The notes under the pieces were generated by a model. That model saw nothing but the letters and a program-made list of their open reading frames with translations, had not been told where the DNA came from and did no database searches. From an uncultured Candidatus Saccharibacteria bacterium (GTDB lineage Bacteria; Patescibacteriota; Saccharimonadia; Saccharimonadales; Saccharimonadaceae), in assembly GCA_947166405.1 (NCBI GenBank), contig CAMVEA010000001.1:1-64000 (forward strand): 64,000 nt of DNA, written 5' to 3'. A program made the position numbers and the translations under genes. Each line of letters begins with the position of its first letter. Within the stretch, counting starts at the first letter, position 1. Shown one piece after another: positions 44,835 through 51,384 of the stretch.

Positions 44835-45728
44835 TTATTCCATTATACCACTATGTTCTGCGCGCCACTTCGCAATCTCACCATGGTTGCCCGATAGTAG
44901 CACATCGGGGACTTTCATCCCACGAAAATCATAAGGCTTAGTGTACTGCGGATATTCCAAGTTGTCCCCATCCGAGAACGATTCAATCTCTGCCGAGTTT
45001 TCGCCGCCTAGCACCCCAGGAATCAACCGCACTACCGAATCAATAATAATGAGAGCTGGCAATTCCCCACCCGTCAGCACATATTTCCCCAGTGATATCT
45101 TGTAATCCACGATCGAGAGAATCCGCTCGTCATACCCCTCGTAGTGCGGGCACAGGATGATGTAGTGGGGGTTAATGGTGGAATCTGAAATCTGCTTTTT
45201 CTGAAGCATAAAGGTTTGATTTGAATTTTTAACACGTATATTCCTGCACCGAAGGTTCGACCTCCGGTCGACGGACCCGACAGGTTCGTCCCGTAGGGAC
45301 GGTTCTGCCGGCGTCCCAGCGTATGACGTGCTTAAAAATTCAAGTCCAGCTGAAGAAAAAGCAGATTCAGATTCCCCAGCAAATGCCCTAGCCATCTGCT
45401 GGTTCCAAATCTGCCCCACGGGGGTAGGCAGGATAACTTTCGCATTGGGATCAGCAGCTTTAACTGATTCAATCGCGGCAAATACTGGCTCACACCGAAG
45501 AAGCATCCCATCCCCACCCCCATACGGCGTGTCATCGACCGATTTGTGTGGCCCCAGCCCAAAATCTCGCAAATTCACAAACGAGAACTCTGCCAGCCCC
45601 TTTCGTACTGCCTTCTCCATCATCGATGACCTGAGATACGGCTCAATCGCCTCCGGAAACAAAGTGATAATTGTAAACCTGATCATATCTATTATTATAC
45701 CACAAAAGCGAATTGAGCCATCGACCAT
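44835..45728 (-). CDS. trmD: tRNA (guanine-N1)-methyltransferase TrmD carrying a long in-frame insertion
   Basis: MIRFTIITLFPEAIEPYLRSSMMEKAVRKGL...DDTPYGGGDGMLLRCEPVF...HYIILCPHYEGYDERI...GDYV-type motif SLGKYVLTGGELPALIIID; extra 65-75 aa before HYIILCPHYEG. Confidence 0.93.
   Translation of the reverse strand: MVDGSIRFCGIIIDMIRFTIITLFPEAIEPYLRSSMMEKAVRKGLAEFSFVNLRDFGLGPHKSVDDTPYGGGDGMLLRCEPVFAAIESVKAADPNAKVILPTPVGQIWNQQMARAFAGESESAFSSAGLEFLSTSYAGTPAEPSLRDEPVGSVDRRSNLRCRNIRVKNSNQTFMLQKKQISDSTINPHYIILCPHYEGYDERILSIVDYKISLGKYVLTGGELPALIIIDSVVRLIPGVLGGENSAEIESFSDGDNLEYPQYTKPYDFRGMKVPDVLLSGNHGEIAKWRAEHSGIME
45180..45375. mobile_element. Intragenic palindromic insertion in trmD (candidate)
   Basis: Long imperfect inverted repeat: GGAATCTGAAATCTGCTTTTTCT...TTGAATTTTTAACACGT versus the reverse complement of ACGTGCTTAAAAATTCAA...AGAAAAAGCAGATTCAGATTCC; centre has hairpins TCGACCtccGGTCGA and CGTCCCgtaGGGACG. 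Confidence 0.65.
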
Positions 45729-45765: not shown

Positions 45766-45922
45766 CAAAAAATGAAAGAGGCGACTCGCGTCTGCCTCTT
45801 TCTTGCTGTTACGCGCCCACCCGCGGGGCACATTGGTTTGTTTTAATCCGCTGTTTTTGTTTTTAATGAGTCTCCACACTCCACTAATCACTCAGTGGAA
45901 CCCCTGTGAAGCGTACCAGCTT
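45766..45922 (-). ncRNA. Candidate standalone structured ncRNA (family unassigned)
   Basis: Minus-strand promoter TTGACA-N17-TATTAT (45957-45929); closing stem GCTGGTACGC/GCGTAACAGC (45920-45911 with 45814-45805); internal hairpins; terminator GAAAGAGGC...GCCTCTTTC followed by a T-tract. No ORF. Confidence 0.6.
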
Positions 45923-46111
45923 ATTACAATAATAAAGCATAAGCGCCGAACTGTCAAGGGATTTTATCCACAATTTTTAGTTTTTTTGTTTAATCAACGT
46001 GCAAGCAGCCTAACACATGATTGAAAGATGAAAATAATAATTCAGCTAGAGCAACTAGCCCGAGCTTCACATCTGACAATTGTATGCATGAAAACTGATA
46101 ATACCGATATA

Positions 46112-49276: not shown

Positions 49277-51384
<2,108 letters not shown>

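Follow-up and report, generated by a model that had tools for sequence, protein, structure and literature searches.

Several described systems come close to the RNA reported here. 6S RNA (RF00013) is a standalone, single-copy bacterial RNA that is closed by pairing of its ends and presents a promoter-like bubble. Bacterial SRP RNA (RF00169) is a small RNA of the housekeeping type and of similar size, with a GNRA-capped domain IV. The T-box leader (RF00230) is a further point of comparison, as GGGUGG lies in a bulge between two helices. raiA, OLE, GOLLD, and ROOL are lineage-restricted, strongly conserved standalone RNAs that were first found by comparison (for OLE, GOLLD, and ROOL, PMC12286853). 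There are not many housekeeping RNAs, and it is rare for a new one to be near-universal across a bacterial order.

The DNA analyzed here, referred to as the window, is a stretch of 64,000 nucleotides from an uncultured Candidatus Saccharibacteria bacterium (GCA_947166405.1, contig CAMVEA010000001.1, positions 1 to 64,000). The window contains the gene for an RNA that is probably of the housekeeping type and seems to have gone unnoticed in Saccharibacteria, which are tiny parasitic bacteria. The RNA resembles raiA, OLE, GOLLD, and ROOL in its restriction to one lineage, but it is without a model match, much smaller, and near-universal in one order.

The RNA gene

The initial annotation described this locus as a standalone structured noncoding RNA that has a promoter and a terminator of its own, and every part of that description held. 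The features of the gene are listed in Table 1. Its promoter (45957-45929, minus strand) is of the sigma-70 type, agrees with the consensus at 11 of 12 positions, and is conserved in a 51-row alignment. The RNA region has a folding energy of -56.9 kcal/mol (z = -4.4), and none of the shuffled sequences was equally stable. The trmD frame lies ~77 nt downstream of the RNA gene in the source genome. Across the family, the RNA measures ~75-125 nt, with the terminator extra. No plasmid or phage match was found, and a mobile origin of the RNA was rejected on this basis.

Table 1. Features of the RNA gene and its surroundings in the window
Feature	Positions	Strand	Basis
Promoter: -35 TTGACA (45957-45952), 17-nt spacer with TTATGC, -10 TATTAT (45934-45929)	45929..45957	-	consensus match
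Conserved RNA core	45805..45923	-	bounds of cmsearch match
P1, 5' strand GCUGGUACGC	45911..45920	-	double changes
P2a: CUUCAC (45911-45906) with GUGGAG (45877-45872)	45872..45911	-	crosses S2
S2 (pseudoknot), 5' strand GGGG	45901..45904	-	covaries with 45825-45828
P2b, genus-type hairpin UUCCACU/AGUGGAG	45879..45900	-	folding; near-invariant in genus
A-rich single-stranded loop UUAAAAACAAAAACAGCGGAUUAAAACAAACCAAU	45832..45866	-	core motif AAAAYAAAHA conserved order-wide
S2, 3' strand GCCCC	45825..45829	-	covariation
Bulge GGGUGGG between S2 and P1	45816..45822	-	GGUGGG (45821-45816) invariant
P1, 3' strand GCGUAACAGC	45805..45814	-	double changes, APC ranking
Intrinsic terminator GAAAGAGGC...GCCUCUUUC then T6; stem 45802-45794 / 45782-45774	45767..45802	-	folding
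trmD, next same-strand gene, outside the RNA gene	44835..45692	-	PF01746 match

Both transcription signals are enriched across 143 copies of the RNA. A promoter with at least 9 of 12 consensus matches was detected just upstream of 78 of these copies, compared with 6 of 564 control windows, and its -10 hexamer typically ends 5-6 nt ahead of the RNA core. A terminator follows 116 of the 143 copies, compared with 29 of 427 controls. The terminator sequence differs from genome to genome, and a few copies have no recognized terminator. A second promoter-like site, TTGACA-17-TATTAT, was seen at 46126-46098 on the minus strand, ~170 nt upstream of the RNA promoter.

Distribution of the RNA

Using blastn, the RNA was matched in 34 of 36 genomes of the same genus, but the 24 other families of the order gave no match. 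A covariance model built from 50 genus copies (R1) matched 214 of 392 sampled genomes of the order. After R1, 53 divergent copies were collected, 35 of which went into a second model (R2). With R2, 312 of the 392 sampled order genomes had a match, never more than one per genome; these matches cover 115 of 156 genera and, among high-quality genomes, 269 of 316. The R2-negative genomes, some of which are incomplete, make up ~20% of the order sample under strict filters. In a phylum-wide sample, all 29 matches fell inside the order, presumably Saccharimonadales, and there were none in the other classes sampled. Homologous trmD loci come from Candidatus Saccharibacteria, many of them of ruminant-gut origin. 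At 35 further trmD or RNase P/tmRNA loci, R2 detected no copies, as would be the case if those genomes carry the RNA at another place.

An Rfam scan had been suggested as a check on the locus, and it assigned the RNA to no known family. Rfam 15 gave no matches at the RNA stretch of the source genome, even at E up to 5, and among 38 divergent copies there was no RNA match above any family cut-off. No earlier description was found in the main text of the open-access papers searched, which did not include the 2017 listing of 224 bacterial RNA candidates. This is almost certainly a real RNA family. The class seems to be new: it is without relatives in Rfam and was not found described in that literature.

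Conserved fold

Comparative analysis, also suggested at the outset, showed conservation across the order and covariation in two helices, P1 and S2. The core consists of P1, a bulge with an invariant GGUGGG, S2, the A-rich loop, and P2, which crosses S2. P1 corresponds to the 10-position closing stem of the initial annotation. When 99 copies were aligned to R2, all 10 P1 pairs and all 6 S2 pairs showed double changes. Changes on both sides of a pair at P1 and S2 occupied 126 cells, compared with 30 after shuffling and no more than 13 in slid-partner controls. All 3,616 column pairs of the 99-copy alignment were also ranked with a G-test and average-product correction (APC). Pairs of P1 and S2 hold ranks 1-6, 10, 11, 14, and 18 of 3,616, and P1 pairs are three of the top six, in an alignment (A5) that was fitted to P1 and S2 and is thus biased towards those pairs. 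A MAFFT alignment of 35 copies (A4) shows the same pairing picture as A5. Most stem pairs are invariant inside the genus; at loci L017, L063, and L068, GGGG changes to AGGG together with a change from CCCC to CCCU (GC to AU).

P2 was evaluated by comparing its arms across copies. In 71 copies, the stem score was 10.0 with each copy's own arms, compared with 7.5 +/- 0.37 with swapped arms (200 swaps, highest 8.4). Since the 5' arm of P2 comes before GGGG and the 3' arm after it, P2 crosses S2 and the fold is a pseudoknot. GG is common to both helices, which compete for it, so P2 and S2 may exchange. Within the genus P2a is invariant, and its support comes from the corresponding P2 of the wider family. 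C45911 is common to P1 and P2a, and U45900 may extend the 5' strand of S2. In distant copies, such as L212 and L214, P2 is small or absent.

These results change part of the structure first drawn for the RNA. In the long hairpin, CCACU/AGUGG is present throughout the genus, but GGGG, drawn as part of an internal loop, pairs with CCCC instead. The A-rich stretch proposed to be single-stranded is conserved. The GUGCCC...GGGCGC hairpin had to be given up: the C side of GCCC/GGGC changes without compensation in L210, L212-L215, L232, L237, L243, L246, and L248, and GGUGGG is the same in all 99 divergent sequences. For the genus, RNAalifold proposed a long rod with UUCAC/GUGGG, which was rejected since it is not conserved outside the genus.

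Gene neighborhood

The neighbors of the RNA vary among relatives and include trmD in either orientation, obgE, tRNAs, and others. In most other genomes, trmD is not the gene downstream. This variation indicates that the RNA is a standalone gene, neither a trmD leader nor cis-acting.

Two neighbors recur. A small RRM_1 gene (E = 4.5e-23) lies divergently upstream of the RNA in 31 of the 53 loci with ~1 kb flanks. Thirty-nine loci have a tRNA-Ala gene no more than 400 nt downstream; in 38 it has the anticodon GGC and is on the same strand. The order of RNA then tRNA-Ala(GGC), for example at L148, L179, L182, and L224, also occurs in other families of the order, often with a terminator separating the two. 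In the source genome, tRNA-Ala(GGC) is on a different contig than the RNA, and 1.05 of its 1.076 Mb contain no detectable RRM homologue, so the RRM protein is not an obligate partner here. An RRM protein on the A-rich loop would otherwise be an obvious RNP. We treat the RRM gene and tRNA-Ala(GGC) only as leads on the ancestral setting and not as a demonstrated partner in this genome. The RRM_1 neighbor, a glycine-rich protein, occurs in about half of the non-genus loci (L137, L139, L144-L187, and L218-L249).

Known families and alternative explanations

The initial annotation recognized no tmRNA, RNase P, 4.5S, or T-box signature, and this was borne out for all four. tmRNA and RNase P RNA have no Rfam match at the locus, and their genes are on other contigs of the source genome (G000:C30 and G000:C26, respectively). 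The T-box leader also has no Rfam match. The RNA shares GGGUGG in a bulge with that class, and copies in relatives lie near tRNA genes, but it has no specifier stem and no aminoacyl-tRNA-synthetase gene downstream; the AGGGUGGNACCGCG element is absent, and GGGUGGGCGCG is in place, not GGGUGGNACCGCG. For SRP RNA, there was no Rfam match in the source genome and none above the cut-off in 60 relatives. The Ffh M domain (PF02978) was not found in the source genome, and all 14 control genomes were positive for it. SRP therefore seems to have been lost, and in Parcubacteria, another candidate-phyla group, both ffh and 4.5S RNA have been reported lost (PMC4508563). A pattern scan for SRP domain IV gave no genus-consistent match. 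A weak SRP-like match (22.5 bits) containing CAGGGCCGGAAGCAAGCA was noted at L101:1501-1597 (G038), which may be a divergent SRP RNA of one family of the order or a chance match.

The vacancy left by SRP RNA could in principle be filled by a divergent version of it. Because the RNA lacks a domain-IV motif and the Ffh M domain was not found in the genome, we consider this reading refuted here unless an Ffh turns up, and its probability is close to nil. A functional counterpart of 6S RNA, binding RNA polymerase, would account for an order-wide, single-copy RNA of stem-bulge-stem form in a genome that has no Rfam 6S match (RF00013, none at E up to 1). This absence is weak evidence either way, as the model was positive in just 6 of 14 control genomes. 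For the RNA stretch itself, RF00013 was negative up to E = 5. The covarying fold combines P1 with a G-rich bulge on one side and a pseudoknotted S2 and is not a 6S rod with a central bubble; it is also shorter, has no promoter-like bubble, and carries the invariant GGUGGG and the A-rich loop. The suggestion of a divergent 6S-type RNA made in the initial annotation was therefore dropped, and a functional counterpart is unlikely. We give the same low weight to an antisense-type sRNA whose seed for mRNAs would be GGUGGG or the A-rich loop. An invariant single-stranded 6-mer in an RNA with its own promoter and terminator could be such a seed. However, complementary sites are less frequent at start codons (0.7% of 671 ORFs) than within genes (2.5%), and a reversed control gives a similar result. 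Seeding at mRNA start sites was rejected on this result. Hfq (PF17209) was found in none of 60 relatives, the source genome included, which excludes an Hfq-dependent sRNA. To our knowledge, base-pairing sRNAs are seldom invariant across an order, which also counts against this explanation.

The gene order raises two further explanations. The UGG-containing bulge could pair with the 3' ends of tRNAs, comparable to the contacts made by T-box and RNase P RNAs, and UCCACC near the 3' end of tRNA-Ala is able to pair with GGUGGG. Such complementarity is, however, common to several tRNAs (Ile, Val, and Leu), the adjacency is lost in the source genus, and the pattern was spotted post hoc. Together with the missing T-box match, this makes a tRNA-linked RNA slightly less probable than either the 6S counterpart or the antisense sRNA. 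A riboswitch or attenuator of the downstream gene would be in keeping with an aptamer-like fold followed by a terminator at this distance from trmD. This is very improbable and largely refuted by gene order, as the downstream gene varies and trmD can be inverted or distant. Moreover, P1 does not overlap the terminator. A cis-acting riboswitch of any class was rejected because there is no conserved downstream gene in the same orientation.

Proposed function

A constitutive, trans-acting housekeeping RNA that works as an RNP is the most likely reading of the sequence comparisons. The RNA is single-copy and near-universal, its promoter looks constitutive, its helices covary, and some of its unpaired bases are invariant, all of which would be expected of a housekeeping RNA with a bound partner. 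The RNA would be transcribed constitutively, and P1 probably sets the ends of the mature form. The RNA would then act in trans as a housekeeping-type RNP. The GGUGGG bulge, held between two helices, could be the surface that a conserved protein or RNA recognizes, and a single-stranded platform for protein binding may be provided by the A-rich loop. The proposed RNP would operate in genomes in which no Hfq was found among those sampled and, in the source genome, no SRP.

As for the mode of action, we give a stable RNP working in trans about even chances against the alternatives of seed pairing and action in cis. A more specific proposal, which we hold tentatively and with somewhat less confidence, is that it forms an essential RNP of Saccharibacteria, undescribed so far, in which the GGUGGG bulge would contact a core machine, such as RNA polymerase, the ribosome, or the tRNA pathway. 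Since cultured Saccharibacteria are now genetically manipulable (PMC10633639), the essentiality and partners of the RNA are directly testable.

Other features of the window

At Rfam gathering thresholds, the only match in the entire window was a tRNA. In an obgE-like frame on the plus strand (49873-51384), the same 31-residue peptide occurs twice, at ~50191-50283 and 51022-51114. The repeat seems to have been inserted into a GTPase of the Obg type.
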